A stretch of DNA of 64,000 nucleotides from Breznakibacter xylanolyticus (GTDB taxonomy: Bacteria; Bacteroidota; Bacteroidia; Bacteroidales; Marinilabiliaceae), in contig NZ_QKZK01000004.1 of NCBI RefSeq assembly GCF_003254275.1, positions 124,001-188,000 on the forward strand. The letters run 5' to 3'. The translations under genes were made by a program, and so were the position numbers. Every line of letters begins with the position of its first letter. The stretch's first letter is position 1. Shown one piece after another: positions 10,521 to 28,180 of this stretch. Below the pieces are notes generated by a model. That model was not told the DNA's origin, made no database searches, and saw only the letters and a program-made list of their open reading frames with translations.

Positions 10521-10590
10521 ATCATGATGGTTACCAAGCGACGCACAGGAAGATGATTATAGATTATCATCGTCTGGTGTCTTGATACTT
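10521..10590 (+). repeat. Dispersed 70-bp element, copy A
   Basis: By hand alignment 57 of 70 positions match the minus strand of 28111-28180, without gaps. It ends 24 bp before the start codon of the WbpB-like gene and shares that orientation with copy B, which lies just before the M16 protease gene. On the opposite strand it carries part of an 81-codon open frame (10325-10570). Between the two copies that frame shows mostly non-synonymous differences, so I do not call it a gene. Confidence 0.75.
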
Positions 10591-10614
10591 AAGTCTTAAT
10601 ACTTTTATAGATAC

Positions 10615-11640
10615 ATGAATTCTTCCATCATAAAATTCGCGGTTGTGGGCATGGGGCATATTGGGAAACGCCACGCCGAAATGATTCGCCGTCATCCACA
10701 AGCCCGCTTGGTGGCCATGTGCGACATTGTTCCGGCACAACAGGCCGGTATCGCTGACGCTGATGTGCCGTGGTTCAATTCCATCGAAGCGTTGCTGGTT
10801 TCAGACCTAGAGGTTGATGTGGTTAACATCTGCACGCCCAATGGGTTGCATGCCCGTCAAGCCATACTAGCCCTCGAAGCGCGTAAGCACGTGGTCATTG
10901 AAAAACCAATGGCCTTGACCAAAGCCGATGCTGAGGCTGTTATTTTTAAAGCCCTGCAAATGTCGCGGCAAGTGTTTGCCGTGATGCAAAACCGTTATTC
11001 GCCTCCTTCGGCTTGGCTCAAACAGCTGATTGCCGAAGGCGTTTTGGGTGATATTTATATGGTTCAGCTAAATTGTTACTGGAACCGTGACGACCGTTAT
11101 TACAAGCCGGGGAACTGGCATGGAACTGCGCAATTGGACGGTGGAACTTTATTTACGCAATTCTCACATTTTATTGATACCTTGTATTGGCTTTTTGGTG
11201 ACATCACCAACATTAAGGCTGCTTTTGGTGACTTTGCGCATCGTCATTCCACCGATTTTGAAGACTCAGGCACAGTAATGTTCGACTTTGTGAATGGTGG
11301 TATGGGGTGCATCAATTATTCCACTGCTGTGTGGGATAAAAACCTTGAAAGCAGCATCTCCATTGTTGCCGAACGCGGCAGCGTGAAGGTGGCAGGGCAA
11401 TACATGAATGATGTGGTTTATTGCCACGTCAAGGATTACGACATGCCGGTGTTGGCACCTGTGAACCCTCCCAACGATTATGGTGCGTATAAAGGGTCGG
11501 CCGCGAACCATCATTATGTGATTGAAAACGTGGTTGATACTCTGCATCATCGGACGGCCATCAGTACCAATGCCCTCGAAGGTCTCAAAGTGGTCGACAT
11601 CATCGAACGCATTTATAGCCTCAAACCAAATCCGACTTAA
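10615..11640 (+). CDS. wbpB: WbpB-like Gfo/Idh/MocA oxidoreductase
   Basis: NAD-dependent sugar-nucleotide oxidase of 341 aa. The Rossmann motif is G-M-G-H-I-G-K-R-H at residues about 12-20. The Gfo/Idh/MocA signature I-E-K-P-M-A-L and the WlbA/WbpB-like M-Q-N-R-Y-S-P-P stretch follow. It is predicted to oxidise C3 of UDP-GlcNAcA, supplying the 3-keto substrate for the WbpE-like aminotransferase. In characterised systems the NADH is recycled on the enzyme with 2-oxoglutarate. The gene starts 24 bp after a dispersed 70-bp element and is followed after 30 bp by the WbpA-like dehydrogenase. Function is assigned from family and context. Confidence 0.85.
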   Translation: MNSSIIKFAVVGMGHIGKRHAEMIRRHPQARLVAMCDIVPAQQAGIADADVPWFNSIEALLVSDLEVDVVNICTPNGLHARQAILALEARKHVVIEKPMALTKADAEAVIFKALQMSRQVFAVMQNRYSPPSAWLKQLIAEGVLGDIYMVQLNCYWNRDDRYYKPGNWHGTAQLDGGTLFTQFSHFIDTLYWLFGDITNIKAAFGDFAHRHSTDFEDSGTVMFDFVNGGMGCINYSTAVWDKNLESSISIVAERGSVKVAGQYMNDVVYCHVKDYDMPVLAPVNPPNDYGAYKGSAANHHYVIENVVDTLHHRTAISTNALEGLKVVDIIERIYSLKPNPT

Positions 11641-11670
11641 TGACTTTAACTAAACATAAATACCTATCTT

Positions 11671-12960
11671 ATGCTTGACCTTTTGCTGAATAAGCAAGCC
11701 CGACTCTCCGTAACCGGGCTGGGGTATGTTGGGCTCCCCATTGCTTTAGAATTTGCCCGAAAGATGTCCGTGATTGGGTTCGACATCAAACAGGAACGTG
11801 TCGATTTGATGAACAGGGGCATCGACCCCAGCAACGAACTCGAAGCAGAGGCTTTTAATGGGTGCGACATTCGTTTTACGGCCAACCCCGATGATCTCAG
11901 GCAGGCTTGTTTTCACATTGTGGCAGTTCCTACCCCCATCAACAAACACAACCTGCCCGACCTGACCCCTTTGTTGGGTGCTGCCCGTACGGTGGGACGT
12001 GCTCTGAAAAAAGGGGATATTGTGGTTTTTGAATCGACCGTTTATCCCGGATGTACCGAAGAGGATTGCGTACCCATTCTGGAGCAGGAATCCGGACTGA
12101 AGTTCAATGTTGATTTCAAGGTGGGCTATTCACCTGAGCGCATCAACCCGGGAGACAAGGAACATACGTTAACTAAAATTCTGAAGATTGTGTCGGGCAG
12201 CGATGCCGAATCGCTCCAAATCATTGCCGATGTTTATGCATCCATCGTCAAGGCCGGAATTCACAAGGCAAGCAGTATTAAAGTGGCCGAAGCGGCTAAA
12301 ATCATTGAAAACACACAGCGCGATGTCAATATTGCCTTGATGAACGAGTTATCGCTCATTTTTCAGCGCATGGGCATCAACACCTACGAAGTGCTTGAAG
12401 CTGCCGGCACCAAATGGAACTTCCTGAAATTTTCGCCCGGGTTGGTGGGAGGCCATTGCATTGGTGTTGATCCTTATTATCTCACTTATAAGGCCAATGA
12501 ATTGGGTTATCATACCAAAATCATTACCGGTGGACGCTTCATCAACGACTCCATGGGGGCATACATCGCTAAGCAGGTGGTGAAGAAATTAATTTCAATT
12601 GGTCATAAGATCAATGGGTCTAAGATTTTGGTTCTTGGGGCAACTTTTAAAGAAAATGTTACCGATATTCGCAACAGCAAAGTGGCCGACATTGTCAATG
12701 AGCTCAAATCATTTAGTGTGGCTGTGGATGTTTATGACCCGCATGCCAACTCTGATGAGGTGATGCACGAATATGGTTACCCCATTATTCCTGATATCAC
12801 ACAGAAATACAATGCTGTGATTGTGGCCGTAAATCATCGTGAGTTTGTTGGGCTTGACGAATCTTTCTTTTTGTCGCACGCTATTCCCGATGCTCTGTTT
12901 GTGGATGTGAAGGGGATTTATCGTGGGAAGATTCATAAAATGAAATACTGGAGTTTATAG
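11671..12960 (+). CDS. wbpA: WbpA-like UDP-N-acetylhexosamine 6-dehydrogenase
   Basis: UDP-sugar dehydrogenase of 429 aa that oxidises C6 of a UDP-N-acetylhexosamine to the uronic acid with two NAD+. The N-terminal Rossmann motif reads G-L-G-Y-V-G-L-P (residues about 16-23). The catalytic cysteine lies in G-G-H-C-I-G-V-D-P-Y-Y-L near residue 267. The central helix I-E-N-T-Q-R-D-V-N-I-A-L-M-N-E-L is typical of the TviB/WbpO/WbpA group. Beside the WbpB, WbpD and WbpE homologues the likeliest substrate is UDP-GlcNAc, but UDP-GalNAc cannot be excluded from sequence alone. Only 5 bp separate it from the metallopeptidase gene. Confidence 0.87.
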   Translation: MLDLLLNKQARLSVTGLGYVGLPIALEFARKMSVIGFDIKQERVDLMNRGIDPSNELEAEAFNGCDIRFTANPDDLRQACFHIVAVPTPINKHNLPDLTPLLGAARTVGRALKKGDIVVFESTVYPGCTEEDCVPILEQESGLKFNVDFKVGYSPERINPGDKEHTLTKILKIVSGSDAESLQIIADVYASIVKAGIHKASSIKVAEAAKIIENTQRDVNIALMNELSLIFQRMGINTYEVLEAAGTKWNFLKFSPGLVGGHCIGVDPYYLTYKANELGYHTKIITGGRFINDSMGAYIAKQVVKKLISIGHKINGSKILVLGATFKENVTDIRNSKVADIVNELKSFSVAVDVYDPHANSDEVMHEYGYPIIPDITQKYNAVIVAVNHREFVGLDESFFLSHAIPDALFVDVKGIYRGKIHKMKYWSL

Positions 12961-12965
12961 AAAGA

Positions 12966-13691
12966 ATGTTAACGAAAGATTTGGTGAATATTGATGGCGT
13001 GGGGCCTGTGATGCTGGTGTGCAGTCAACGGGCTTCGCGCCTTTCTATTCGTGTGAAGCCTTTTAAGGGTATCGAGGTGGTTTTTCCTTTTGGGACATCC
13101 CCCAGGCAACTTTCTGCTTTTATCGAAAACCATCGCCAATGGATGCTTGATGCCATTCAAAAGGTGAAACAACATGAGCACAAACAGACAATTTTTGATG
13201 AGTCAACTGTTTTTAAAACCCGTTTTTTTGCATTGAAAATTGAACCCGATGTGCGTCATAATGTGCAGTTAACATTTAAAAACGGGCTTTTGCACGTACG
13301 CTACCCTTCACACATGTCAGTGGCAACGTCATCCATTCAGGAGGTGATACGTGGAGGTATTGAACAGGCGTTGCGCTACGAGGCCAAATCATTTTTACCC
13401 AAACGAACTTTTGAATTGGCACAACAGCATGGTTTTGCATTTAACACCATTACGGTCAAGAATTTGAAGAGTCGGTGGGGGAGTTGTTCCGGAAAAAAGA
13501 ACATCAACCTCAACCTTCATTTGATGCGCCTTCCCGATCATTTAATTGATTATGTGTTATTGCACGAGTTGTGCCATACCGTTGAAATGAACCATGGCCC
13601 CCGGTTCAAAGCTTTGCTCGATAAAGTGACCGTGGGACAGCGAGTGCGGTTAGAAGCGGAAATGAAAAATCAACGCACAGTGGTTTATTGA
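12966..13691 (+). CDS. YgjP-like zinc metallopeptidase (DUF45, M48-related)
   Basis: A 241-aa protein of the YgjP/DUF45 family. The zinc site is visible as H-E-L-C-H followed by N-H-G-P-R-F near residue 200, preceded by the diagnostic S-R-W-G-S-C motif. It has no signal peptide or membrane segment, so it should be cytoplasmic. The physiological substrate of this family is poorly defined. The 5-bp spacing to the sugar-nucleotide dehydrogenase suggests co-transcription. The stop is only 3 bp from the stop of the convergent phosphatase gene, leaving no room for a terminator between them. Confidence 0.88.
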   Translation: MLTKDLVNIDGVGPVMLVCSQRASRLSIRVKPFKGIEVVFPFGTSPRQLSAFIENHRQWMLDAIQKVKQHEHKQTIFDESTVFKTRFFALKIEPDVRHNVQLTFKNGLLHVRYPSHMSVATSSIQEVIRGGIEQALRYEAKSFLPKRTFELAQQHGFAFNTITVKNLKSRWGSCSGKKNINLNLHLMRLPDHLIDYVLLHELCHTVEMNHGPRFKALLDKVTVGQRVRLEAEMKNQRTVVY

Positions 13692-13694
13692 GTG

Positions 13695-14927
13695 TCACAG
13701 AAATCCCATGGCAATGAGGGCAATATCGTCAAATACCGACCCTTCGCGTACCAATTCGGCCACTCTGGTTTTTATTTCGGCCATGTCGTCGGCGATGGGG
13801 TGACGTTGGTTGATGATGTGTTCCAGTTCCAGCACATCGGTTTCTACCATTTGATTGCGTTCTAGCTCAACCAGGCCATCGGTAAAGGCCATGAGTTTTG
13901 ATTTGCGTGGCACAGTCATTCTTCCCACATCAATGTGTGGGATGAAATCGAGCATTCCCAGACCGATGCATCCTTTTTCTAAATGAATAATTTGGTTCTT
14001 TTTGCCATCGAAGAAGATCGGTGGCAGGTGACCGGCGTTGATGTAGGTGAGCCGGCGGGTGAGTGTGTTGTATCGACCGATAAACAGGGTGATGAACTTT
14101 TCGTTGTTGGCACTGTCGTTTACCCGTTCGTTGAGCTTGTGCACCAGTGACGGCAGGTCGATGGTGGCGGTGAAAAGGGAGCGGATAATGGCCTGAAAGT
14201 TCGACATCAGAATGGCGGCTCCGACGCCTTTGCCCGACACATCGGCAATGCAAAATCCTATTTTATAGGGTGATAGTTTAATGATGTCGTAATAATCCCC
14301 TCCAATCCCAAAGTGTGGTTGATAAAAAGCTTTTAATTCGAGGTTGGCGTAAACAGGCAGTTTTTTGTCGTTGGGAATGAGTTGATTCTGTATTCTGGCG
14401 GCCAACTGCATCTCGCGTTTTAACGCTTCCTGCTCGAGCAGCGCGTTTTGCATACGCTTGTTCTCGATGAACACGATGATGAGGTTGGAGATGATTTGAA
14501 TGAGTTTCAGGTGCTTGATGGTGGGGCTGATGCCTGTTTGTTCCTCTTCGACGTCGCCAATGAGTACGTAACCAATTTCTTTGTAACGGTGAAACAGCGG
14601 AATCACTGCGTCGAATCCTTTGAGTTGTGGGGGATGCGACAGGGTGATGTTCTCGATGGTTTTGTATTGAATCAAGTCCTGTTCCACGTCTATTTGCTCC
14701 CGCTCGTTGTCCGACACGCCCATCGAGAGCAGGTTTTTCCATGAGTTGTTAGAATAGGTGTACACCAAAACCTTACCAACCTCAAGTTCTTCTTTGAGGA
14801 GGATTTTAAAGCCGGCCAGCAAATCTTCGATGGTGTGGTCCTGGTTAATGGTTTGAGCCACATCGAGAATGATGTTCAGTCGGTCTTTGTATATATGTAG
14901 CCTTTTCTTGCTTGACTCGGTGAGCAT
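13695..14927 (-). CDS. GAF-domain PP2C-type (SpoIIE/RsbU) phosphatase
   Basis: A 410-aa soluble protein. Residues about 15-165 look like a GAF sensor domain, followed by a short coiled coil (about 165-190) and a SpoIIE-type PPM phosphatase domain (about 205-410). The metal-binding motifs are intact: G-G-D-Y-Y-D, D-V-S-G-K-G, N-A-G-H and F-T-D-G-L-V-E. Such enzymes usually dephosphorylate anti-anti-sigma (STAS) proteins in partner-switching cascades. No STAS or RsbW-like gene lies nearby, so the target is unknown. It is transcribed after efp but separated from it by a strong terminator. Confidence 0.9.
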   Translation of the reverse strand: MLTESSKKRLHIYKDRLNIILDVAQTINQDHTIEDLLAGFKILLKEELEVGKVLVYTYSNNSWKNLLSMGVSDNEREQIDVEQDLIQYKTIENITLSHPPQLKGFDAVIPLFHRYKEIGYVLIGDVEEEQTGISPTIKHLKLIQIISNLIIVFIENKRMQNALLEQEALKREMQLAARIQNQLIPNDKKLPVYANLELKAFYQPHFGIGGDYYDIIKLSPYKIGFCIADVSGKGVGAAILMSNFQAIIRSLFTATIDLPSLVHKLNERVNDSANNEKFITLFIGRYNTLTRRLTYINAGHLPPIFFDGKKNQIIHLEKGCIGLGMLDFIPHIDVGRMTVPRKSKLMAFTDGLVELERNQMVETDVLELEHIINQRHPIADDMAEIKTRVAELVREGSVFDDIALIAMGFL

Positions 14928-15002
14928 TGAATGGAGGTGGAATGAATCTACGGTGATGTAATTTACTGAAAATTACAGAAAATGCAAGCAATTCGCGTTT
15001 AT

Positions 15003-15048
15003 AAAAAAAGCACGCCATGCGAAGTCATGCTTCGCATTGGCAGTGCTT
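15003..15048 (-). terminator. Rho-independent terminator of efp
   Basis: On the minus strand a long imperfect hairpin (AAGCAC, GCCA and ATGCGAAG arms around a 5-nt loop) is followed by seven Ts, 15 bp after the efp stop. Confidence 0.88.
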
Positions 15049-15062
15049 GATGCTTTGGGGTG

Positions 15063-15632
15063 TTATTCTTTAACGCGTTCCACGTATGAACGATCGCGTG
15101 TGTCAACTTTAATTTTGTCGTTTTGGTTTACAAACAGGGGAACCATAATGATGGCACCGGTTTCGATGGTGGCCTGTTTGAGTGACGAAGTGGACGAAGT
15201 ATCACCTCGAACACCTGGCTCGGTATATGTGATTTCGAAGTTGATGAATGCAGGAAGGTTGACCAGCAATGGCGTTTCGGTGTCGGCGTGGTAAACCACA
15301 TCTACCTGGGTGCCTTCTTTCAACAGGTCGTAGTTTTCAACCAAATCTTTATCGACGGTGATTTGCTCAAAACTTTCCATGTTCATGAAGTGGAAACCCA
15401 TTTCATCGTTGTAAAGGTATTGATGGGGACGCATTTCTACGCGCTGCTCGTTAATTTTTACGCCGGCCGAAAAGGTGTTTTCCAGAATTTTGCCGGTGGT
15501 GACGTTGCGCAATTTGGTGCGGACAAAAGCGGGACCTTTGCCTGGTTTAACGTGTTGAAATTGGACGATGAAACAAAGCTGGCCGTTGTATTCGATGCAC
15601 ATGCCGTTTCGGAAGTCTGCAGTAGTTGCCAT
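15063..15632 (-). CDS. efp: Elongation factor P
   Basis: Translation factor that relieves ribosome stalling at polyproline stretches. The 189-aa length and three-domain beta-barrel layout match EF-P. The tip loop that enters the peptidyl-transferase centre reads V-K-P-G-K-G-P-A, with lysine at the position modified in many bacteria. No modification enzyme (EpmA, EpmB or a rhamnosyltransferase) is encoded in the window. The gene has its own -7 box, which abuts the terminator hairpin of the preceding DUF3108 gene, and its own strong terminator. Confidence 0.97.
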   Translation of the reverse strand: MATTADFRNGMCIEYNGQLCFIVQFQHVKPGKGPAFVRTKLRNVTTGKILENTFSAGVKINEQRVEMRPHQYLYNDEMGFHFMNMESFEQITVDKDLVENYDLLKEGTQVDVVYHADTETPLLVNLPAFINFEITYTEPGVRGDTSSTSSLKQATIETGAIIMVPLFVNQNDKIKVDTRDRSYVERVKE

Positions 15633-15663
15633 TTGAAATATTTATTTTTTGAAAGATTAAAAC

Positions 15664-15701
15664 GAAAAAATGGGCGTGATTTTTTTAAAAAAAACACGCC
15701 C
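15664..15701 (-). terminator. Terminator of the DUF3108 gene
   Basis: On the minus strand GGGCGTG pairs with CACGCCC around a T/A-rich inner segment that extends the stem, followed by a T-run (15664-15671). It lies about 75 bp after the DUF3108 stop and 31 bp before the efp start. Confidence 0.8.
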
Positions 15702-15708
15702 AAAAGTA
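15701..15708 (-). promoter_or_regulatory. -7 box of efp overlapping the upstream terminator
   Basis: On the minus strand TACTTTTG matches TAnnTTTG exactly. Its final G is the first base of the upstream gene's terminator stem. Initiation about 7 nt downstream (near 15694) would leave the whole 5' arm out of the efp transcript. The -33 region is weak. Confidence 0.5.
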
Positions 15709-15773
15709 ATGGTTTTATCTGAAAAATGGCACGTATTGGGTTCGTTATCATCCAAAATGCGTGCTGATTGGCT

Positions 15774-16550
15774 TCATTTTTTGAGGCTTGTAAAGGGATT
15801 TTTCAGGTTTTTGTAGTTGTCGAGTACGCAGTTGAATGACCCTACCGTCAGGTCGAATTGAATGCGCACAGGGATTCGGTTGGCATCGCGCGAAATCCAC
15901 ACGTGCATGTCGTCTTCGGTGGCAAAGGCGCGCCCTTTTTCGGTCACCGGGCTAAAACGGTAGCATTGCACGTCCCCAAATTTGGTGCTCACGGTTTCGA
16001 TGCCCCGGTACCGGATGCGTAAGGGAAACAGTTCGTTGGAGAAGTAGGTCATGATTTCAATGATTTCGTCCTTCTTGAGGCTGTCGTTAAATTTGAAGTT
16101 GCGTGCATAGTAAAAGGCCGAAAGAATATCCTGGATGCGCGAAGGAACCGGTTGTGTTCCTTTTAGTTTGCTCACAACATAAAGGGAGTCGTGGTTGTAG
16201 GTTACTTCGTCATAATATTTATAGCGTCCTTCTTTAATGCTACGAACCGATTTCATCGGCAAGTCATTGGTGGGATTGATAAAGCTCTCGTACCGGTCGC
16301 GTACGCTGAAGAGCATGTCGGCAACGCCAACTGTTTCTCCGCGGGCGACAACGTGATTCAGTTTTACGCCGTTCATCAGTGTGTCTTTTACCGAAAGTAT
16401 GCCTTTCCCTCCTTTGATAAAGCCATAGTTGAGCGAATATTCTAAAAATTCACCGGGACCGTATGACGTATTTTTTTTCACCGGCGTGTCGAATCCGGTC
16501 AACATAGCGAAGATGGCAAGAATTGCCCATGTGCGTAAGATTGTTTTCAT
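15774..16550 (-). CDS. DUF3108 secreted protein
   Basis: A 258-aa protein with an N-terminal signal peptide (residues about 1-20, R-T-W-A-I-L-A-I-F-A-M-L-T-G). The remainder fits DUF3108, with the tyrosine-rich opening Y-G-P-G-E-F-L-E-Y-S and a closing segment D-D-M-H-V-W-I-S that is typical of the family. Members are periplasmic beta-rich proteins of unknown biochemical function. The gene lies between tsaB and efp on the same strand, but it has its own terminator, so it is not obviously in an operon with efp. Confidence 0.85.
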   Translation of the reverse strand: MKTILRTWAILAIFAMLTGFDTPVKKNTSYGPGEFLEYSLNYGFIKGGKGILSVKDTLMNGVKLNHVVARGETVGVADMLFSVRDRYESFINPTNDLPMKSVRSIKEGRYKYYDEVTYNHDSLYVVSKLKGTQPVPSRIQDILSAFYYARNFKFNDSLKKDEIIEIMTYFSNELFPLRIRYRGIETVSTKFGDVQCYRFSPVTEKGRAFATEDDMHVWISRDANRIPVRIQFDLTVGSFNCVLDNYKNLKNPFTSLKK

Positions 16551-16705
16551 AGCTTGATACCTTTGGTTGCGTTTCCTTCAATTGGTTATCAATTCATACG
16601 TTTGAGTTCGCTATTGAAGTTACAAAATCTATGCAATTCTCAGACCAATTTCAATGTGTGATGGATGGGGTGTTGTAAGTATCAGTAAGTGAGTGAGTAA
16701 TCTTT

Positions 16706-17404
16706 TCAAAAAACTTTGTTTTTGGGCGTTGTTGCTACAAAGTCTTTCAAATATAACGGTTCCATGTAGGCCACATCTTCAAAACGGTTTTCATGAAAAG
16801 CCAGTTGAGCTGGTATTGCCATGTGGTGAGCCAGTGGCATACATTGATCAATGAAAAGGGCGTTGGGGTGGGTAATTACTTCATGGCATTTATCTGCTCC
16901 ATTGCCGGCAAAAATGATGGGTTGTTCATTTAATTGAGTGGCAAGTGATTGGTTGTCGATGATTTCGGCAGTGATGGGTGTTAGCTGTTGCATGGCAGTG
17001 TTGTACAGTGTGGTGTAAACTTCCATGCGTCGGGCATCAATCATCGGACATAACAGGGCATGGGGCGTTTGGTTTGCCAACTCGCTCTGTCGGATTTGCC
17101 AAGCAAGAATTTCCAATGAGTTAATCGCAATCAGGGGTTTGTGCATGGCGTAGCAAATACCTTTTGCGGTAGAGATGCCAATTCTCAGCCCTGTGTATGA
17201 TCCCGGCCCTGAACTGACGGCAATGGCATCGACCTCCGAAAACACCATTCCCGATTCCTGCATGAGGCTTTCAATGAGGACTGTGAGGTGCGATGCGTGT
17301 GAATAACTGTCATGGTGTTGCTTGGCAAAGCGGGTGGTTCCGTTTTCCGACAATGCCACCGAGCACATTTGGGTGGAGGTTTCGATGCTTAAAATGAGTG
17401 CCAT
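16706..17404 (-). CDS. tsaB: tRNA threonylcarbamoyladenosine biosynthesis protein TsaB
   Basis: Non-catalytic partner of TsaD in the complex that makes t6A at position 37 of ANN-decoding tRNAs. The 232-aa length is usual. The ASKHA-fold opening I-L-S-I-E-T-S-T and the conserved S-S-G-P-G-S-Y-T-G-L-R-I-G (residues about 67-79) are diagnostic. An exact -7 box sits only 18 bp before the start, implying a very short leader. No terminator is visible in the 155 bp that follow. Confidence 0.95.
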   Translation of the reverse strand: MALILSIETSTQMCSVALSENGTTRFAKQHHDSYSHASHLTVLIESLMQESGMVFSEVDAIAVSSGPGSYTGLRIGISTAKGICYAMHKPLIAINSLEILAWQIRQSELANQTPHALLCPMIDARRMEVYTTLYNTAMQQLTPITAEIIDNQSLATQLNEQPIIFAGNGADKCHEVITHPNALFIDQCMPLAHHMAIPAQLAFHENRFEDVAYMEPLYLKDFVATTPKNKVF

Positions 17405-17421
17405 GGCTGTTTCTTTTGTGG

Positions 17422-17429
17422 CAAAAATA
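17422..17429 (-). promoter_or_regulatory. -7 promoter box upstream of tsaB
   Basis: On the minus strand TATTTTTG matches TAnnTTTG exactly. No TTTG box was found 19-21 bp upstream. The predicted start near 17415 gives a leader of about 11 nt. Confidence 0.4.
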
Positions 17430-17598
17430 ACATTTTATCCCGATGATGTATCGATGTCTTCTGCTGGCACATCGTGTGTGATTTGACATGTGTCACTCTG
17501 TTTGTCCTTCTACAAGTGCATTTGATACAAAAGCTTCTCGTTATATCTGCATCACGGCTCATTCACAAGGCATCCTGGGTGGATTAGGATCTTAATGA

Positions 17599-17640
17599 AA
17601 CACAAAGGGTTGTCGTGTTATTCCGACAACCCTTTGTGTT
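17599..17640 (-). terminator. Hairpin terminator of the alpha-2-macroglobulin gene
   Basis: A perfect 17-bp stem (AACACAAAGGGTTGTCG and its complement) around an 8-nt loop lies 15 bp after the stop. The T-tract is short (GTGTTTCATT). Confidence 0.75.
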
Positions 17641-17654
17641 TGGTTGATGCCCTG

Positions 17655-20600: not shown

Positions 20601-23195
20601 GGTGTCGGTGAGTAGCATGCCGCGACGGTCGCCTTTGGGAACTCGCAAGCCTACGAAGCTTTTGTATGGAGCGTATTTAATGTTAAAACGATCCACACTA
20701 AAGTCGCCGCCCTCTTCGTACACGCGCGTGAGGAAGGCTGCGTTAAGCATGCCGGGTGCTTGCTCTGACGTCTGAAGGTTGCCCGTAATATTTGCTTGTC
20801 CCAGGTCGTTTAATCGGCCATCGAAAATATTGATTTCTTCGGGTTGAAAACTGCGGGTAGGGTCATCAAAATGATAATCGGGGTAAGCCTTAAAGCTGGT
20901 TTTGGTGCTATTGAGGGTCACCAAAACATTGGCATTGAGGTTTTGGGCAATGGCTCCGTGAAGCCACTTCGAAGTCAGGGTTGAAGAGAGGGATTCTCCT
21001 TTTTTGATCATCTCTTTCCCGAAATCGAGCTCTATTTTAAGGCGGTTGGGTTTGACGGTTTCTACGCGCAGCGGTTGCTCAAACGACGTGCCGCCCACTA
21101 ACACCCTGCAGGTCCACGTTCCCGTGGGAGCTGTTTCGGTGGTGGTGGCAATAAAGCGGTAGTGGTTGTGTTCGTTGATTTGTGCCACTTGCCGCGAAAC
21201 CATTTGACCGTGGGGATTTAGTAATTCAAACACCAATGGATGACCGGCGGGGATTTTTTTGAGTTTGTCTTCAAGGATGAATCCCAAAAATAGAGTGTCG
21301 CCAGGTCGCCACACACCCCGTTCGCCGTATATGAAACCTTTGAGGCCTTTATCAATGGTTTGTCCTGATATGTCGAAACGGCTCAGTGAGAGGGCAGAAC
21401 CATCATCGAGGCGCAGATAGCCTCGTTCTTTTTCTTTTTTAGCGATGAGCAGATAAGGTTTGCGTGACACATCTATGCGAGCCAGACCGTCGGACCCACT
21501 TTGTGCTTTGCCGATAATTTGGTTTTGGTAATCAAGGATTTCTAATTCAACATTGGCCATTGGCTCGGTGCTGCGAATGTCCGAAACGGCCACCATGATT
21601 TCCTTGTTGGTACCGCCCTTTGCCACCAACCCGATGTTTGAAGCCAGGATGTTACGGCTTACGGACTTGTTTCTGTAATACATCGACTTACATGGGTTGT
21701 CGCGGTCTTCCCAGCTATCATAGTCGTTGTAATCACCATCTTCGGTATAATCCCAGTTGCTATATGAGTAAGCCGATGGTGTGTCCCAATAGGCGATGTC
21801 ACCTTCGGTAATGCCTTCGTCTTTGATTTCGGCAGCGGGCTCATTTTCTTCACCTTCGCATGGGTAAATGGCAAATTCTTTTTTCATGTTCAGCACCACG
21901 CGGTAGATGGCTCCGGGTTCCGGCTGAATCAGGTTGGCCAAATCGAGTGAAAAAGTATTCCAACGTGTGGGATCGATGGTTTTGTCCTGATCTAACAGGA
22001 TGATTTTCTTCAGCACCAGTCGTCCTGCTCTGCGCAGTTGGTCTTCTCCGTCCATGGTGTTGATTTGTAGAAACGACGCCACATTGTTTTCGAATATCTT
22101 GATGATGTTCACTTCAATGGCTCGCAGACTCACCGTGCGGAATGGTAAGATGAGACCTTGCGAATTGGGAAGGATGGTTCCTTTACCGATGAACTCCATT
22201 TGTGGCATGAGTGCCTCAAATGCCAAGTCGAAAGCTTGTCGGTTTTTCATTTCGTAAGTCAAAATATTCTTGATGCCCGGCGACGCAATGAGTTGAGCGT
22301 GTCCCTGAATGCGGCTGTTGAGATATATTGTCACCAGGTTGGCATCAATTTCGTATCGAAGGTTCTCCTGGTTTTCAATGTCCAGCAATCCATCGAGGCT
22401 TTGTGACGAGAGCAACGGGTCGGAGAATTGCACAATGACCTTTTGTGTAGGCTGTTGTTCTACCGTGACGTTCATAATTTTAAAGTCGCCCAAGGCTGGC
22501 ACTTCAATTTCTTCGCTTCCTTTGATGTCGACATCAATGGGGCTACCATCCCATTCAATGGTGATGCTTCCGGCTGCGTCTTGCCGGCTAATGCCATGTG
22601 CCGTAAAATAGTGCTGTTGTTCTATGGATTGATGTTCCCAGGTCAGGTCAAGTGTTTGACCGTTTTGTGTGACCGTGACAATTTTCTCAATTTGAGTGGC
22701 ATCTTCATGATCGGCGAAAATCAGTTTGCCGGTAAAGAGGTTTAATTTTAAGTCGGTTAGCACTTCGGGGCGCAAATTGACGGCCTCAAATTTGAAGTTT
22801 TGCGGCATTACATCAAACGTAAAATCAAAGGTGCCCTCTTCATCGGGGAAAATTTTGGCCATTTTGAGCGAGACCTCAAAATGTTGTCCGGAGGGGAGTT
22901 TTTTTTCGGGTTGCAGAACCAGCGTTTGGTTGTCTTCCCAATACATTTTCCCGTTTACCGATGGCGAAATGCTCATTAACGAAGGGGAGGCTTCTTTGCC
23001 CGGCTCGGCTTCGGGGACACTCTGTTCGAATATCACCCGGATGGCCGTTTGGTTGCTGACGGTACCGGATGTAAAGGCCACAATTTTTTCGTGGTAAGCC
23101 ACTACGTTGTCGCTTTTTTGTTGACGGCAACTGCACGAGGGCGTGGCCAACATGGCTGCAATCGCCATCAGGAGGATGGTGAAGTGTTTAATCAT
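17655..23195 (-). CDS. Bacterial alpha-2-macroglobulin family lipoprotein
   Basis: A 1846-aa envelope protein of the YfhM/MagD type. The N-terminal hydrophobic segment ends in P-S-C-S-C, a plausible lipoprotein cleavage site. MG-type beta-sandwich domains fill the first two thirds. The reactive thioester motif is intact as G-C-V-E-Q near residue 1395, followed by an alpha/alpha-toroid (about 1400-1680). Family members are periplasmic protease traps thought to guard the cell when the wall is breached, in partnership with PbpC. Here pbpC lies about 9 kb away on the same strand rather than next door. A terminator-like hairpin sits 28 bp upstream of the start. Confidence 0.93.
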   Translation of the reverse strand: MIKHFTILLMAIAAMLATPSCSCRQQKSDNVVAYHEKIVAFTSGTVSNQTAIRVIFEQSVPEAEPGKEASPSLMSISPSVNGKMYWEDNQTLVLQPEKKLPSGQHFEVSLKMAKIFPDEEGTFDFTFDVMPQNFKFEAVNLRPEVLTDLKLNLFTGKLIFADHEDATQIEKIVTVTQNGQTLDLTWEHQSIEQQHYFTAHGISRQDAAGSITIEWDGSPIDVDIKGSEEIEVPALGDFKIMNVTVEQQPTQKVIVQFSDPLLSSQSLDGLLDIENQENLRYEIDANLVTIYLNSRIQGHAQLIASPGIKNILTYEMKNRQAFDLAFEALMPQMEFIGKGTILPNSQGLILPFRTVSLRAIEVNIIKIFENNVASFLQINTMDGEDQLRRAGRLVLKKIILLDQDKTIDPTRWNTFSLDLANLIQPEPGAIYRVVLNMKKEFAIYPCEGEENEPAAEIKDEGITEGDIAYWDTPSAYSYSNWDYTEDGDYNDYDSWEDRDNPCKSMYYRNKSVSRNILASNIGLVAKGGTNKEIMVAVSDIRSTEPMANVELEILDYQNQIIGKAQSGSDGLARIDVSRKPYLLIAKKEKERGYLRLDDGSALSLSRFDISGQTIDKGLKGFIYGERGVWRPGDTLFLGFILEDKLKKIPAGHPLVFELLNPHGQMVSRQVAQINEHNHYRFIATTTETAPTGTWTCRVLVGGTSFEQPLRVETVKPNRLKIELDFGKEMIKKGESLSSTLTSKWLHGAIAQNLNANVLVTLNSTKTSFKAYPDYHFDDPTRSFQPEEINIFDGRLNDLGQANITGNLQTSEQAPGMLNAAFLTRVYEEGGDFSVDRFNIKYAPYKSFVGLRVPKGDRRGMLLTDTTHTCHVVTVDADGNAVSRRNVKYFVYKIEWRWWWESSENDLTRYSGSEYQNLITSGSFNTTNGNGKFNFSIKYPDWGRYLIRVIDTEGGHACAKTVYVDWPGWALKPSANPQDAAMLTFNADKDKYATGENVTLTFPSPGVGRALVSIESGSRVLKAWWVETQKGVTNVTFEATPDMAPNVYAHITLLQPHLQTVNNLPIRLYGVIPIMVEDPKTRLEPVIDMADELQPGKTTTIRVKESTDQKMVYTVAVVDEGLLDLTRFTTPDPWNLFYAREALGVRTWDLYDLVTGAYGGRIEKAFSIGGGDDLDGRKGGDKTNRFKPMVKFMGPFVLEKGKTGVHTFTMPQYVGSVRTMVVASHQGSYGKAEKATPVRKPVMVLATLPRVLGPGETVALPVTVFAMKDNVKNVNVKLEISGPLEIIGESSTKVAFDRPGDKVVTFNLKVKEQIGAAKVTIKASAAGDDAVDVIDIAIRNPNPPVYTFVEKTIPAGASVTLDYTLPGMAGTNHGVLEVSGIPPVDFGRRLKYLLAYPHGCVEQTTSGVFPQLFLSDVMELTPETAKRAEQNIRAGINRLKQFINSDGGFGYWPSNNSSDDWGTSYAGHFYLEAEKKGYLLPNGWKKEWVKFQKKMARQASGSNHMSHFSQAYRLYTLALAGESDLSSMNRLRNEKNLSINAKWRLAAAYALAGQQDAASKMIENISTDHESTKAVSDYTYGSPDRNDAMIIETLTLLNHHEKAMPLVVKLSKAMSSQNWMSTQTTAYGLIALSRFAGKTSGNEPLKFEWSHNGKKQGSFTVQKSVRQDSLVIGKALNGQVTVTNPSKKVIYARVTMHGVPAIGEETASESNLRMSVSYTDMDGDAIEIDQIQQGTDFKAIVRISNPGLLGAYQNLALTQIFPSGWEIRNTRLENIQSAHEGNLPTYRDYRDDRVYTYFDLDNNRTSTYVVLLNATYKGRFYLPAANCEAMYDHTVNARNTGQWVEVK

Positions 23196-23222
23196 AAAAT
23201 AATGTCTTAAAAGTTGGGTTTA

Positions 23223-23256
23223 TAAAAAACAGAATGACAATTTATACAACATTCTG
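23223..23256 (-). terminator. Hairpin with T-tract between the LytTR and alpha-2-macroglobulin genes
   Basis: On the minus strand a 7-bp stem (CAGAATG with CATTCTG) around a 13-nt loop is followed by six Ts. It is about 95 bp after the LytTR stop and ends 28 bp before the alpha-2-macroglobulin start, so it could act as terminator or attenuator. I find no TAnnTTTG box between it and the gene. Confidence 0.6.
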
Positions 23257-23351
23257 CAATTGAGAGCTTTTTTGTTGAAAAAAATATTGATTGACTTCTT
23301 TGTTAAGTTTTCTCAATCGTATCGGATGAAGCCAATGACATAACATCCCCA

Positions 23352-24242
23352 TTATAAATGGCCGAATGCCTGCATGATATCCTGCATATAAGTTTTTGAA
23401 ACAGGTATTTCAATGGGCGGGGTGGTGTCCAGTTCCAGAATGAGGCCGTCTTTGTCTTTACGGACCAGTTTTACCTTGTCAATGTTGACCATGTAGGAGC
23501 GATGACACCGAACGATGGATTTCTCAGAAAATTCATCCTCCAGCTTCTTAAGTGTGTTGCGTAAAAGAAATTTTGATGGCTTGTTAGGGGTATGATAATA
23601 GATGGTTACATAATTGTCGCTCCCTTGCAGGTATAGTAAGTCGTTTGTTTTGAGAGAAATGCGTAAAGTCCCTTTGTCGTCTTTAAAAGGAACCATTAGG
23701 TTGGTCGTCGTTGGGTCGGGTTGTTGGGTGAGTGCTTGAAGTTGTTTGTCTTTATCTCGCCACGACAAATAGAGCCACATCAGGCCATAGGGGATGATGA
23801 GAACCAGGGTGGTGTTGAGCAACGATTTGCGGAAAGCCAATAAAACCGGGCGTGGTTCGGGGACAAAAAAATATTCGTAGAACGTGTAAAAAAGTGCCAT
23901 GCTCAATATTTCAACTCCGACCCATTGAATGTAATGAAGTGTGCTGAGTTGAGCCCCTTTCTTAACCTTACTGTACATAATCATCCGACTGATAACCACC
24001 ACGAGAACGCCCGTGAGAATGATGGCACTCGACATAAAAATCAATTCACGTTCTTTGTTTCCCGATAAGAACCCCATCAGTCCCAGTTTTTCCCAGTTGG
24101 GGTTGATTCTCAAAAAGGTGCGGATGCCAAATGGTGCGTAAATATTGACAAATACCAACGCGAAAGCAGCCGTGAAAAGAATCAATCGGGTGATGTTCTT
24201 TTTTTCGGTTAGATACGAGGGCAATTTCTGGCTTAAATCCAT
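23352..24242 (-). CDS. Membrane-anchored LytTR-type DNA-binding regulator
   Basis: A 296-aa protein. Four hydrophobic helices occupy residues about 18-165 (for example L-I-L-F-T-A-A-F-A-L-V-F-V and I-I-L-T-G-V-L-V-V-V-I). A LytTR domain follows at about 190-294, recognised by L-L-Y-L-Q-G-S-D-N-Y-V-T-I-Y-Y and by C-H-R-S-Y-M-V-N. There is no receiver domain, so the membrane part probably senses the signal itself or meets a partner kinase. It lies just upstream of the alpha-2-macroglobulin gene on the same strand, which makes that gene a candidate target. That link is inference. Confidence 0.88.
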   Translation of the reverse strand: MDLSQKLPSYLTEKKNITRLILFTAAFALVFVNIYAPFGIRTFLRINPNWEKLGLMGFLSGNKERELIFMSSAIILTGVLVVVISRMIMYSKVKKGAQLSTLHYIQWVGVEILSMALFYTFYEYFFVPEPRPVLLAFRKSLLNTTLVLIIPYGLMWLYLSWRDKDKQLQALTQQPDPTTTNLMVPFKDDKGTLRISLKTNDLLYLQGSDNYVTIYYHTPNKPSKFLLRNTLKKLEDEFSEKSIVRCHRSYMVNIDKVKLVRKDKDGLILELDTTPPIEIPVSKTYMQDIMQAFGHL

Positions 24243-24405
24243 TCGCGATGTTGGTTTTTTAAAATGGATTGTAAAATTAACAAATAAAAAGTCGCATCAA
24301 AGCCCTTGTTTGTGAAATTGTGAGTCGGCGATTTCACCCCAAAATGTCAGTTTTTGCCCCTAAATACGTTCTATTACCCCAGATAGCAGGTGTCAATCCC
24401 AATAA

Positions 24406-24616
24406 TTTGGTATTAAGGTCGCGGTTTCTTTTCTTTGAATTGTGTTTTCAATCACGCATCTTTTTTTATGTGATGATTGTTCATCGTGATCAGCGTCATT
24501 TTTCAAAGTTTTTAATTAAAATGTTTGATTAATTGATTGCAGATAACTTCAACAGACTTAATACCTAAGTGATTGTTCATATTCTTCAGTAAGGGGCAAC
24601 GGCCCCTTTTTTTATG
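24406..24616 (+). ncRNA. Candidate small RNA with its own promoter and terminator
   Basis: TTTG at 24406-24409 is followed after 20 nt by TTTCTTTG (24430-24437), one mismatch from TAnnTTTG, so initiation would be near 24444. A plus-strand terminator follows at 24591-24612: a 7-bp stem AAGGGGC/GCCCCTT with a 4-nt loop and a run of Ts. Both flanking genes are on the minus strand, so this terminator has no obvious coding gene. The transcript would be about 165-170 nt. It contains the near-repeat TGATTGTTCAT twice and a 19-codon ORF that is probably fortuitous. Confidence 0.4.
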
Positions 24617-24664
24617 CCTTTATGTTTGAAGTCACTTGTGAAGTGGTGTTTTGAATTCAGCATC

Positions 24665-24731
24665 CAATGTCGTTTAGTTATGCCCAACGCTCCTGCTTAT
24701 CGCCCTTTCATGGCTTAACTTAACGACATCG
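24665..24731. repeat. Inverted-repeat unit 1 (CAATGTCGTTTAGTTA arms)
   Basis: The left arm CAATGTCGTTTAGTTA (24665-24680) and the right arm CTTAACTTAACGACAT (24714-24729) are near-complementary, with 33 bp between them. Both arms recur exactly in unit 2. Confidence 0.7.
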
Positions 24732-24837
24732 TTTCAGTATCTCATGAATGATTTTGTCTAATTCTTAACTGAAGTATTTGTGGTTCGGATTCATTGTAAT
24801 CGCCATGTGACAGACTTTTCATTTTGCAATCGTATAT

Positions 24838-25002
24838 CAATGTCGTTTAGTTAGTGACAATCGAATAAAAGACAAGGAGAATTTTAGACATCAGACAGAT
24901 AGATTAGACTGTGAAGACGAAGAAAACAGATCTAAATATCTTTCCTTATCTCATCATCTGTCTCATAGTCTTGCGTCTTCTTCTCTTAACTTAACGACAT
25001 TG
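24838..25002. repeat. Inverted-repeat unit 2 (same arms, longer interior)
   Basis: The arms at 24838-24853 and 24985-25000 are identical to those of unit 1. Extended to 25002 they are complementary at 15 of 16 positions. The interior of about 131 bp is unrelated to that of unit 1 and rich in AGACA- and TCTTC-like words. Confidence 0.7.
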
Positions 25003-25018
25003 AATCGAATATCAAAAT

Positions 25019-25056
25019 AAAAAAGCCCCGTCATGAGATGGTAGGACTTTTTTATT
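25019..25056 (-). terminator. Terminator of the PreP-like M16 gene
   Basis: On the minus strand AAAAAAGTCC pairs with GGGGCTTTTTT, allowing G-T pairs, and a T-run follows, 14 bp after the gene's stop. Confidence 0.6.
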
Positions 25057-25069
25057 TAGTATTAAACTT

Positions 25070-28000
25070 TTACTGTAAGCTAATGCAGATTTTAAACAGT
25101 GATTCAGTTTCTTTAATTTTTTCATCGTTACCATACACACACCAAGTCTTTTGATCGAGGATGTCTTTCACCATCTTGCTCAATTGCTTTAAGTCATTAG
25201 GTGTAGTATTCAGAATTTCTGTTCGTTCATTTTGAACCATTTCGCTGGAAACTCTCGTGAAATGGTTGTAAAATGCTTCATCTCCTTTTTCTGAAGGTGT
25301 TTTTGGTCTGTCGATGCGCGAAATGGTTCCGATGATGAATCGGGTCATGGCTGTGCTGTCGAGACTCAGTGAGTCGAGGTAAGCATCGATGCCGGCATAG
25401 TTATCGAGGGTCTCTTTCAAGTTGGGATCGCGATATGATGCAAAATATGCATTTCCCGAAGGATCGAAACGGCTGAATCCGCCATAGGCGCCACCAATAA
25501 CTCGTATTTTGGTTTGCAAATAGTCTGTCGATAGCAGTTGGTCAAGAACTCTGATTTTTCCGTTCCACTCGTAACCCAGTTTCTTAAAATTGGCTCCTTG
25601 CAGCACAAATTGCACTTTGGAAGGGGTCATGATACCCTCATTTTTTGCAAGTGGTTCAAAAATCCATTGCTGGGGCTTGTTGGCTGCAACGGGTAATATG
25701 GCCGTAAAATGGTTCAGTGCGGGAACCACCATTTTGGTGTAATCATCTGCAGTACATGTGAATCCTACAGTTAGATGAGTGCGATTAAATAATTTATTTA
25801 CAAGTTCTTGCAGCTTTAATGTCACCTCGTTTTTTTGTTGATCGAACTTGGCTGTCAGGTCGTTTAAAAAGCGGTAATATTCCAAGCCACCGCGCAGTTC
25901 GGCGAACATTCCCTGATTGGAGTGATACGAGTATAAACGGGTGAGAGCCACGTTCATGCCATTTTGCTTCATCCGCAAATCCAGTTGAGACTGATGGCGC
26001 GATAGCAATTCTTTCATTCGTACATGGTCATCGAATTTTGAATGCAATAAAATTTCTTCAATCAGGTCGAAAAGGGCAGGGGAGTTGTTATGCAATATTT
26101 TGGCCGAGACTTCAAATTTAGGCTGCAATTGGTCGTCGGAGCGATCCTTCATAAAACCGGTGAGGGTGGTGTTGAAACCGCCGGTTTCTCGGTTCAGCGT
26201 GTTGTCCAAATCTCCATACGTGTATTTGCGCGTAGGCAGTTTGCCCAATAATTCTGAAAGAAGGCGAATGTACGGAATATCTTCTTTGTCGATAACGGTG
26301 GCATCGAAGAATAGGCTGGTGTATATGATTCCGTTGGTGAACTCGTTGCAATGAATGATTTTCACACCTTCTTCTTCTTTTTCAATGGCGCCGTGCCATT
26401 CGCCGGTTTTGCCAATATCCGATAGTTCCAGCATTGGGATTGAGGCCAATGCGGTTGAGTCATCTTCGCGTTGTTGATATTCGATGAGCTCCGTGGTTCT
26501 TTTTACCAGTGAATCTTTTTGTTCTTGGGTCAGGGTACTTGTGTAAGTTGTTAATTCGTCTGTTACCTGACGGTTGAGTTCTGATTGCAGCCCTTTTTGC
26601 GGGTTGAGGGTCAATAGGAGCGAATGGGGGTTGTTGAGAAAGTATTGTTTGATGACCGTTTGCAAATAACCACTTTCGATGCCCTCTTTCAGGTTTTTCA
26701 AATAAGCTTCGTACTCTAACCCTACGTATGGGTTTTGAGCAAACATCCAGTTGCTCATGTTCATAAAAAAGTACATCAGCCCTTTGTGGGGCGTGTCGCC
26801 TTCTCGCAAATTGAATTCCATCCGGTTAATGATACCTTGCAACATGGCGCTGTCAAGGCCATTTTCGGCGACTTTCTTGAGCTCGGCCATTACGATGTCG
26901 TAGAATTTGTCGGCATCATTGGGATTGGCATTTAACACGCGGATTTCAAAAACGTTTTGCTGCATTTCCGACATTGCCGCGCTCACTTCTTGTCCGATTC
27001 CGGCATCGAGTAATGCGCGACGTAGTGGTGCCGACTCTTGGTTGACGAGTGCTTCGGATAACACATCAAGCGCTTTGACCAGAGCCAGATCGGTGTTTTG
27101 TCCTGTAACAAAACTTAAACTCAGGAAGGTTTTGTTTTCAGGCGTTTCGTCATCTGCAAGCGGATAGGGTTTTACTTCGCGTTTCATTTGGGCAAACGGA
27201 GCTTGCATAGGAATGGTGACTTCAGTGGGGCTTTGGGTATATTCCGAAAGGTAAGCCTCATCGATGAATTGTAGCTCCTTATCCAAATCGGCATTGCCAT
27301 ATAATAATATATAGCTGTTGGAGGGATGGTAATATTTACGATGAAAATCAAGAAACTTTTCATACGTCAGTTGAGGAATGGCAGCAGGATGTCCCCCTGA
27401 TTCATGACCATAGGCGTTATCGGGAAACAGGATGCGTTGCTTTTGATATTCGAGTTCGCTGAGGGGGTTTGAATAAACGCCTTTCATCTCGTTGTAAACC
27501 ACTCCTTTGTATTCAACTACGGATGAGGTGTCTTGCATTTCGTGATGCCAACCTTCCTGCATGAAGATTCGCTCGTCAGTGTATATCAATGGGTTAAACA
27601 CCGCATCGAGGTACACATGCATCAGGTTAAAGTAGTCTTTATCGTTCATGCTGGCGACCGGATACACCGTCATGTCGGAACCAGTCATGGCGTTGAGAAA
27701 GGTGTTTAGTGACCCCTGTAGCAGTCGATCGAATGGACTCTTGACCGGAAAGTTTTTAGAGCCGTTTAATACCGAGTGTTCAATGATGTGAGGTGTGCCA
27801 CAATCATCTTCGGGAACGGTTTTAAATGCGATGCCAAAAGTCTTGTTGGCGTCATCGGACATGATTTTAAACAGGCGGGCTCCGCTTTTTTCGTGTTTAA
27901 AATAGAGGCATTCGGCATTCACCTCTTGTACAAATCGTTTTTCAATCAGCTTAAAGCCATGGTAACTCTTTCCGGTCATATATGTTTTGTTTGTGTGGCA

Positions 28001-28099
28001 CCCCATCCAAAGAAGGGGGAGCAAAATTACGATTCCTATCCACCATGTTTGTTTATCAGGGGATGGTTTTTTTGGCATTTTCAATCTGGATGTTTTCAT
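25070..28099 (-). CDS. PreP-like M16C metalloprotease lipoprotein
   Basis: Zinc protease of about 1009 aa in the presequence-protease branch of M16. The inverted zinc motif is visible as H-I-I-E-H, with the distal glutamate in Y-N-E-M-K-G-V-Y-S about 75 residues later. The four-domain length with the M16C-associated middle region fits. The N-terminus has a hydrophobic stretch ending L-L-W-M-G-C, a lipobox that predicts a lipoprotein. An in-frame ATG at 28126 lies inside a dispersed repeat; I prefer 28099, and 28078 would also keep the signal peptide. The likely role is degradation of short unstructured peptides in the envelope. Confidence 0.9.
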   Translation of the reverse strand: MKTSRLKMPKKPSPDKQTWWIGIVILLPLLWMGCHTNKTYMTGKSYHGFKLIEKRFVQEVNAECLYFKHEKSGARLFKIMSDDANKTFGIAFKTVPEDDCGTPHIIEHSVLNGSKNFPVKSPFDRLLQGSLNTFLNAMTGSDMTVYPVASMNDKDYFNLMHVYLDAVFNPLIYTDERIFMQEGWHHEMQDTSSVVEYKGVVYNEMKGVYSNPLSELEYQKQRILFPDNAYGHESGGHPAAIPQLTYEKFLDFHRKYYHPSNSYILLYGNADLDKELQFIDEAYLSEYTQSPTEVTIPMQAPFAQMKREVKPYPLADDETPENKTFLSLSFVTGQNTDLALVKALDVLSEALVNQESAPLRRALLDAGIGQEVSAAMSEMQQNVFEIRVLNANPNDADKFYDIVMAELKKVAENGLDSAMLQGIINRMEFNLREGDTPHKGLMYFFMNMSNWMFAQNPYVGLEYEAYLKNLKEGIESGYLQTVIKQYFLNNPHSLLLTLNPQKGLQSELNRQVTDELTTYTSTLTQEQKDSLVKRTTELIEYQQREDDSTALASIPMLELSDIGKTGEWHGAIEKEEEGVKIIHCNEFTNGIIYTSLFFDATVIDKEDIPYIRLLSELLGKLPTRKYTYGDLDNTLNRETGGFNTTLTGFMKDRSDDQLQPKFEVSAKILHNNSPALFDLIEEILLHSKFDDHVRMKELLSRHQSQLDLRMKQNGMNVALTRLYSYHSNQGMFAELRGGLEYYRFLNDLTAKFDQQKNEVTLKLQELVNKLFNRTHLTVGFTCTADDYTKMVVPALNHFTAILPVAANKPQQWIFEPLAKNEGIMTPSKVQFVLQGANFKKLGYEWNGKIRVLDQLLSTDYLQTKIRVIGGAYGGFSRFDPSGNAYFASYRDPNLKETLDNYAGIDAYLDSLSLDSTAMTRFIIGTISRIDRPKTPSEKGDEAFYNHFTRVSSEMVQNERTEILNTTPNDLKQLSKMVKDILDQKTWCVYGNDEKIKETESLFKICISLQ

Positions 28100-28110
28100 A
28101 TGTATAAAAA

Positions 28111-28180
28111 AAGTATCAAGATGCAAGACGATGAGGGTTTTTAATCATCTTTCTGTGTGTCGCTTGGTGATCGTCATGAT
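28111..28180 (-). repeat. Dispersed 70-bp element, copy B
   Basis: It matches copy A (10521-10590) at 57 of 70 positions without gaps. It ends 11 bp before the preferred M16 start, in the same orientation to that gene as copy A has to the WbpB-like gene. A weaker resemblance (15 of 17 bases around CGACACACAGGAACATG on the minus strand) lies near 28412-28428. Confidence 0.75.

Follow-up and report, generated by a model that had tools for sequence, protein, structure and literature searches.

The stretch of DNA analysed here (the window) comprises 64,000 nucleotides of Breznakibacter xylanolyticus contig NZ_QKZK01000004.1 (positions 124,001 to 188,000), and it contains two copies of a short repeated element, here called E_B, each directly before a start codon. 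Copy 1 (10513..10614, plus strand) precedes a Gfo/Idh/MocA-type oxidoreductase gene (10615..11640, plus strand; described as WbpB-like in an initial annotation), whose own ATG forms the right end of the copy. Copy 2 (28100..28188, minus strand) precedes a PreP-type M16C protease gene (25070..28099, minus strand) with its ATG at 28099. The initial annotation had reported a 70-bp repeat at 10521-10590 (plus) and 28111-28180 (minus), matching at 57 of 70 positions without gaps, 24 nt from ATG 10615 and 11 nt from ATG 28099, and upstream of unrelated genes, all of which was borne out. The next best 70-mer in the whole window matched at 39 positions with copy 1 as the query and at 36 with copy 2 (mean about 18, standard deviation 3.7). 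The length of 70 bp did not hold, as the true element is longer, spanning about 10513 to 10614 and 28188 to 28100.

Copy 1, delimited by alignments and a profile match (10497-10623), starts with ATGAAACC and ends with ...AGATAC. Its 3' part, which we have called tail B (10567..10614, plus strand; located by alignment, pattern and profile match), is promoter-like and consists of GTCTT(G/A)ATACTT twice, then TTTATAGATAC adjoining the start codon. The tail B pattern had one match in the window, with none expected from shuffled sequences. Copy 2, placed by alignments and a profile match, has a degraded left end (ATAATAC), is without the second tail unit, and ends with ...TATACAT. The open reading frame (ORF) listing for the protease gene includes an upstream TTG at 28126, inside this copy.

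By its sequence, and as a correction to the initial annotation, the element is one of two related families. A worn copy of the second family, E, lies at 10437..10512 (plus strand), abutting copy 1 of E_B in tandem, and the order is therefore E, E_B, gene. It matched covariance model R2 with 37.2 bits (E-value 7.6e-6) over model positions 1-98 of 98, the match extending to 10521 across the shared ATGAAAC joint. This E is an older element than the E_B copy that it adjoins.

Copies and placement of E_B

E_B is about 90-120 bp long, with the left end ATGAAAC, a 3' part carrying a GTCTTGATACT tandem repeat, and the right end ...AAACANATG on the gene's own start codon. In aligned copies the head reads ATGAAACnATCATGAc..CACACAGGAAGATGATTA and tail B, which ends on the start codon, reads TCATCGTCTTGTGTCTTGATACTCAnGTCTTAATACTTTTTTAAACAnATG. 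Further copies, for which the initial annotation had suggested a search, were found in the genome of the window (G000; 4.38 Mb in 92 contigs). A BLAST search with 10511-10620 hit 45 places at E-values of up to 10, the weakest of which are marginal, and 41 of them at up to 0.01. A sequence profile of the 3' part gave 138 matches at E-values of up to 1, with 150 candidates scored.

These copies respect gene starts. Tail matches of at least 18 bits number 81, in 70 loci of the same genome. In 41 of these, a frame of 60 codons or more starts with an ATG at a distance of 4-11 nt beyond the anchor, most commonly at 9 nt (18 cases). The background is 2.7% of the intergenic positions of the window (411 of 15,138), and on the opposite strand only 2 of the 81 have such an ATG. 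In those 70 loci the E_B profile covered head and tail together in 22 of 76 matches. The proposal of a third, more diverged piece near 28412-28428 fared less well; there is a weak profile match at that place, but it is not separable from chance.

In two relatives from two other genera (G019 and G008), E_B measures about 120 bp, starting with ATGAAAC and ending with AAACANATG, so these ends are common to three genera. Over 2,547 bp, G019 is identical to RHGE01000085.1, a record of Marinilabiliaceae bacterium JC017. The window copies align end to end with 17 of the G019 and G008 copies, minus about 24 bp in the middle of the element. At the protease gene, E_B was absent from all ten PreP orthologues for which upstream sequence was available; their flanks have diverged too far for the joint to be placed.

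The sister family E

Family E was first met 3' of one tail B copy and reads ATGAAACGAGCCATGAGnnnnCTCACACAGGAGGATGATTATTGGCGAGTTCCATNTGGCCAATGAAAAACAAATTATAAACANATG. Both of its ends are shared with E_B, and so is the CACACAGGAnGATGATTA block. A survey of 60 genomes from 21 genera of the same taxonomic family found E, at an E-value of up to 0.001, in 38 of the genomes and 17 of the genera; copy counts in this survey are lower bounds, because at most 14 candidates were scored per genome. Covariance-model matches number 69 in G000, at least 150 in G047, 21 in G007, and 5 each in G057 and G071. The E core also occurs in two of the named-genome loci retrieved with the tail pattern, from a Saccharicrinis metagenome-assembled genome (MAG; L041) and a Bacteroidales MAG (L033). 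Nine loci searched against Rfam gave no match at E-values of up to 1, and phage, plasmid and viral collections had no match, the last being searched by exact pattern only. No earlier description of E or E_B was found in the one open-access literature library consulted. Some heads or E copies (in L003, L012, L024, L253, L367 and L369) have an additional inner hairpin, about 20 nt long (e.g. AATCAATGATTGGCGCAGCCAATGATT), between the GGAG and ATGATT blocks.

In G047, counting the best 65 of 78 matches, 49 E copies have a right-end ATG that opens a frame of 60 codons or more, always at the same offset. A further 10 are upstream members of tandems, in which the right-end ATG serves as the left end of the next element; one copy is 16 nt off, and five are without such a frame. 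The left triplet is ATG in 60 of the 65, GTG in three, CTG in one and ATA in one. NTGAAA sites in the same loci, which were picked for holding E, number 42 at called starts, 220 at other non-coding positions and 428 in coding sequence, with genes crudely called as ORFs of at least 100 codons. The preference for starts is not explained by survival in non-coding DNA alone, given the 42 sites at starts against 220 elsewhere. In 14 of 17 adjacent tandem pairs in this genome, the gene-proximal copy is nearer to the model.

Outside the window, the unrelatedness of the genes rests on protein starts and blastp. At 1e-15, none of 27 G000 proteins behind E matched any of 50 behind E in G047, both sets being samples. 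One gene behind tail B in G000 does match one behind E in G047 (71%). Two E copies in G000 lie antisense inside Y1-transposase-like genes, with the joint ..CACTTG|AAACGAGCC...

Two arrangements in G000 are recorded here in their own right. The antisense E copies in L289/L290 and L292 (G000:C8, about 150.3-156.2 kb) follow the first beta strand in two separate copies of the Y1-like gene. Away from gene starts, E is also part of a larger dispersed repeat several hundred bp long, ..GGTAACTAAGCCGCCTTCGG + E + ..AGGCCTATGATTTTTAGCC.., which was seen at L236-L240, L242, L243, L247, L250 and L373.

Fold and pairing within E

The structure of E was analysed in 32 copies from the window's genome and related genomes. 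In helix P1, AUG-A-AAC-GA-GCC(A) pairs with (U)GGC-GA-GUU-C-CAU in 95.9% of cells; P1 shows little covariation because it is nearly invariant. P2 is a hairpin, TGAG..CTCA, and covaries. In P3, an inner CATNTG pairs with the right-end CANATG in 93.8% of cells, and the N positions covary. In the structure as a whole, 19 cells have both sides changed and the covariation score was reached by none of 500 shuffles; likewise, none of 500 shuffles equalled the score of P2 and P3. Among 98 distinct copies, N forms a Watson-Crick pair in 87, where 45 would be expected; thinning at 85% identity leaves 61 copies, 52 of them with the pair. RNAalifold, run unaided, returned only P1, without covariation support.

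The inner GTT-C-CATNTG of E has two complements: the left junction, ATG-A-AAC, and the right end of the same element, CANATG. P1 and P3 use the same CAU and are mutually exclusive. Three different inner stems occur between the constant ATGAAACGA and GAGTTCCAT, the alternatives including GTCCCGA/TCGGGAC and ACATGAATTTTA/TAAAATTCAT. The copies in the Y1-like gene have an inner CTTCTG or CCTCTG and the right end CAGAAG, which is not a start codon.

Filled and empty sites

Precise presence and absence at start codons in relatives, in line with the suggestion that the repeat is mobile, was found for E. Locus L300 (G057) exceeds both its paralogue L390 (G057) and L391 (G051) by 89 bp, exactly at the start codon. 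The filled site reads ..ccaagaa ATGAAACGAGCC..ATTATCAC ATGAAAAGATAC.. and the empty counterparts read ..cctgaaa ATGAAAAGATAC.. and ..catcgag ATGAAACGATAC... The filled site has one extra ATGAAA(A/C)GA, which could alternatively be read as a short duplication. Other paralogues of L300, in G043, span the whole query, so E is present in some of them. E is also absent from L393 (G068) when compared with L305 (G071), with an unrelated 8 nt at the joint. Among PreP orthologues, a mini-E of 64 bp stands exactly at the start codon of L411 (G022), and a congener (L412, G048) is without it, the flanks being alike.

G057 and G071 belong to one genus and have five E copies each, of which two positions are held in common. 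One of these lies within a 3.1-kb stretch that is 99.97% identical. As a separate observation, the identity of this stretch (L296/L295), compared with 88% at the other shared locus, points to recent transfer or mixing.

Tail B and the Bacteroidota promoter

The exact pattern GTCTTGATACTNNNRTCTTRATACTT was found in 76 stretches of named genomes, mostly from Bacteroidota (including Olivibacter, Algoriphagus, Carboxylicivirga, Saccharicrinis and Pedobacter), with a few matches outside that phylum (for instance, records of Aliikangiella, Ignavibacteria and Melioribacteraceae). Some of these stretches are arrays, some stop just before an ATG, and some do neither. Long arrays of a GTCTTGATACTTG(T/C) unit, with several matches in a row, were seen in the MAG UBA1952 (L043, L087, L098).

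The primary promoter of Bacteroidota has been described as a -33 TTTG and a -7 TANNTTTG, with transcription starting about 5 nt further on (PMC6847099). Tail B resembles it in having TTG and TACTTTTA, the latter present in the consensus of 26 copies, at plausible places. It differs in the last base of the -7 element, which is A in tail B, in the spacing from TTG (15 or 22 nt), and in a putative start about 3 nt before the ATG. Because the likeness to the -7 TANNTTTG is only partial, we treat the promoter role of tail B as putative.

The nearest published parallel to the tail unit is the TAACTGA heptamer, whose repeats precede the start codons of genes in Beggiatoaceae, Cyanobacteria and some Bacteroidetes and for which a regulatory role has been proposed (PMC4679880). 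Both consist of short tandem units ending within a few nt of the start codons of unrelated genes. The tail B unit is 13-14 bp (GTCTTGATACTTGT) rather than 7 bp, and the TAACTGA repeats are not described as having a head module or element ends, unlike E_B.

Comparison with known mobile elements

Miniature inverted-repeat transposable elements (MITEs) and the Correia, BOX and RUP repeats are small and non-autonomous, lie near genes and can carry promoters. E and E_B resemble MITEs in being small, non-autonomous and near genes, but they differ in having no target duplication beyond the shared ATGAAA, a strict orientation and an exact register with the start codon. By inspection, neither of their ends (GAAACGAGCC.. 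and ..AAACANAT) is an inverted copy of the other. They also resemble the structured leaders in Rfam in being structured and directly before start codons.

The closer comparison is with repetitive extragenic palindromes (REPs) and the TnpA-REP transposases (also called RAYTs), and with the insertion sequences IS200/IS605. Guide pairing and Bacteroidetes subclasses of TnpA-REP have been described, and subclasses 2.4 and 2.6 of Bacteroidetes show REPs inserted within tnpA or "atypical secondary structures" with copies elsewhere in the genome (PMC6006769). E is like REPs in being short, non-autonomous, hairpin-bearing and present in many copies without inverted termini, and like IS200/IS605 in that a short guide pairs with the flank or cleavage site. 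E has no terminal inverted repeats, a fixed short target and no clear target duplication. Of the two guide pairings, CATNTG/CANATG covaries and GTT-C-CAT/ATG-A-AAC, being nearly invariant, is without covariation support. G000 has seven Y1 (TnpA) matches and Y1 genes of the YIHQNP type, and two regions with the latter carry E inside. Unlike REPs, E lies on start codons, rebuilds the ATG, and is present independently of PF01797. In L286 (G000:C9:129296-132631), a TnpA-like Y1 gene lies between arrays of a CCCCAGCCTGAAGGCTGGGG palindrome in the classic REP/RAYT layout, separate from E.

Interpretation

We consider it probable that the 70-mers are the inner part of E_B and that the family is one of non-autonomous mobile elements, which are short (64 to about 120 bp), structured and do not code for protein. 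On our best reading, E and E_B would be REP-like elements favouring start codons, with E_B also carrying a promoter-like tail. The initial annotation had offered a shared leader or promoter and a small mobile repeat as alternatives, and each appears to hold in part; the promoter half is sustained by the tandem-repeat tail ending on the start codon, although its function as a promoter is only putative.

A typical element would begin at the last letters of the target start codon (ATG|AAAC..) and end with ..CANATG. Insertion would occur at NTG^AAA; the old ATG would stay behind upstream as a dead start, and a start codon would be rebuilt before the gene. The inner guide may pick both the NTGAAA target and the right cleavage site, much as guides do in IS200/IS605 and REP elements, which HUH/Y1 enzymes move as single strands. 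Insertion as a single strand would fit because there are no inverted ends and no clear target duplication, the orientation is fixed, tandem copies share a joint, and guide and end covary. Tail B may act as a transcription signal, in which case E_B would give a gene both promoter and leader; E, inside the transcript, would give it a leader only.

A more specific version, which we put forward tentatively as a possibility, is a start-codon-homing element. Its guide would read NTGAAA by pairing, guide and right end would have co-evolved into retargetable sub-types (CATATG/CATATG, CATGTG/CACATG, CATCTG/CAGATG and CTTCTG/CAGAAG), older copies would have been pushed upstream into a stack of leaders, and E_B would have gained a promoter that rewires transcription. 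If this is true, dozens to well over 100 genes per genome owe their present translation start region to a mobile element that targets the start codon and rebuilds it, and this would be a direct route for rewriting leaders and promoters in this group of Bacteroidota. It would also provide a naturally occurring insertion, guide-paired and self-restoring, that lends itself to study as a targeting system, and would explain many of the recurrent 5' leader repeats and stray short ORFs called before genes in these genomes.

Several observations weigh against the mobile-element reading. In G000, where 43 of 47 rows were used for placement and two of these are one copy, only 25 of 42 distinct E copies have a start codon at the right end, and nine are within a larger repeat. 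In three of the 17 G047 tandem pairs the proximal copy scores lower; two of these pairs are copies of one region, with a variant subtype as the proximal member. The pairs of filled and empty sites found were for E and not for E_B; recombination between ATGAAA repeats, with loss of the element, would also leave empty sites, and no transposition was observed. The covariation that the initial annotation had suggested looking for was found in the helices of E, but RNAalifold on a 14-copy alignment of E_B gave no common structure and no covariation. In E the guide is 3' of the fold, and no guide tetranucleotide was found directly 5' of the hairpin foot, where it lies in IS200/IS605 and REPs. If TACTTTTA in tail B is a -7 element, there would be almost no leader on the transcript, a situation that is unusual in Flavobacterium (PMC6847099). 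PF01797 was found in 32 of the 38 genomes with E and in 16 of the 22 without it; six E-positive genomes (G006, G010, G014, G015, G050 and G058) have none. By presence and absence, PF01797 is not associated with E, so that this comparison gives no support for a Y1 transposase as the mobiliser.

Other explanations could account for parts of the data. Tail B could be a widespread Bacteroidota promoter or leader of GTCTTGATACT units that grew by slippage and gene conversion, the heads being incidental. This is suggested by the occurrence of the 13-14 bp unit in the 76 named-genome stretches, where it often directly precedes an ATG and forms tandem arrays, and by the 54 of 76 E_B-profile matches in the window's genome without full head and tail. 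We regard it as rather unlikely, given that 22 copies in this genome and most of those in G019 and G008 have a specific head with the left end ATGAAAC, including a CACACAnGAnnATGATTA block that is present in E too. It is unlikely as well that E and E_B act in cis as the leader RNAs of a regulon, their copies being kept by selection, in which a trans factor or ligand would switch translation by toggling between P1 (left AUG with the guide) and P3 (the guide with the start codon CANAUG). The mutually exclusive use of one CAU, the covariation of P3 with the start codon region, and the sense orientation of most G047 copies exactly on the start codon would all suit such a switch. Covarying secondary structure is what is looked for in a cis-regulatory RNA, and single-stranded DNA would show the same. 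The association with a conserved set of genes that would be looked for in such an RNA was absent from the two blastp samples described above, copy number ranges from 0 to at least 150 within one taxonomic family, and the congeners G057 and G071 share only two of five positions. The RAYT copy, in which CTTCTG faces a non-start CAGAAG, keeps its pairing, which argues that the pairing serves the element and not the start codon.

Copies might also have spread by homologous recombination or template switching at a common gene start, ACATGAAA, with no dedicated enzyme. ATGAAA is found at both ends, tandem copies share one ATGAAA, and no enzyme correlates with E. A homology of 8-9 bp is short for recombination, however, copies also occur at CTTG|AAAC in the Y1-like gene and behind GTG and CTG, and the covariation of guide and end argues for recognition; we think this origin improbable. 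An element that encodes a small, translationally coupled leader peptide (MKRAMSKPYSHRRMIIGEFHMANEKQIIII*), with a TGA overlapping the next ATG, is very hard to credit. Nine of 26 E rows read in the window's genome have an ATG start and an open 30-codon frame, but many copies in this genome have frame-breaking 1-bp differences and almost none in relatives keep the frame. The 30-residue coding ORF was rejected since it is broken in most relatives' copies, and no constant frame of E is conserved as coding sequence across relatives; the initial annotation's doubt about a conserved small gene was thus right.

Other features of the window

At Rfam gathering cut-offs, the whole window gave nothing but a tRNA, and a tRNA gene lies at 38721-38794 on the minus strand. 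A tail B end fragment (39283..39301, plus strand; TTAATACTTTTTTAAACAC) comprises the last 19 bp of tail B without the rest, which on its own is a weak match; it ends exactly at ATG 39302 of an ORF of 482 amino acids.

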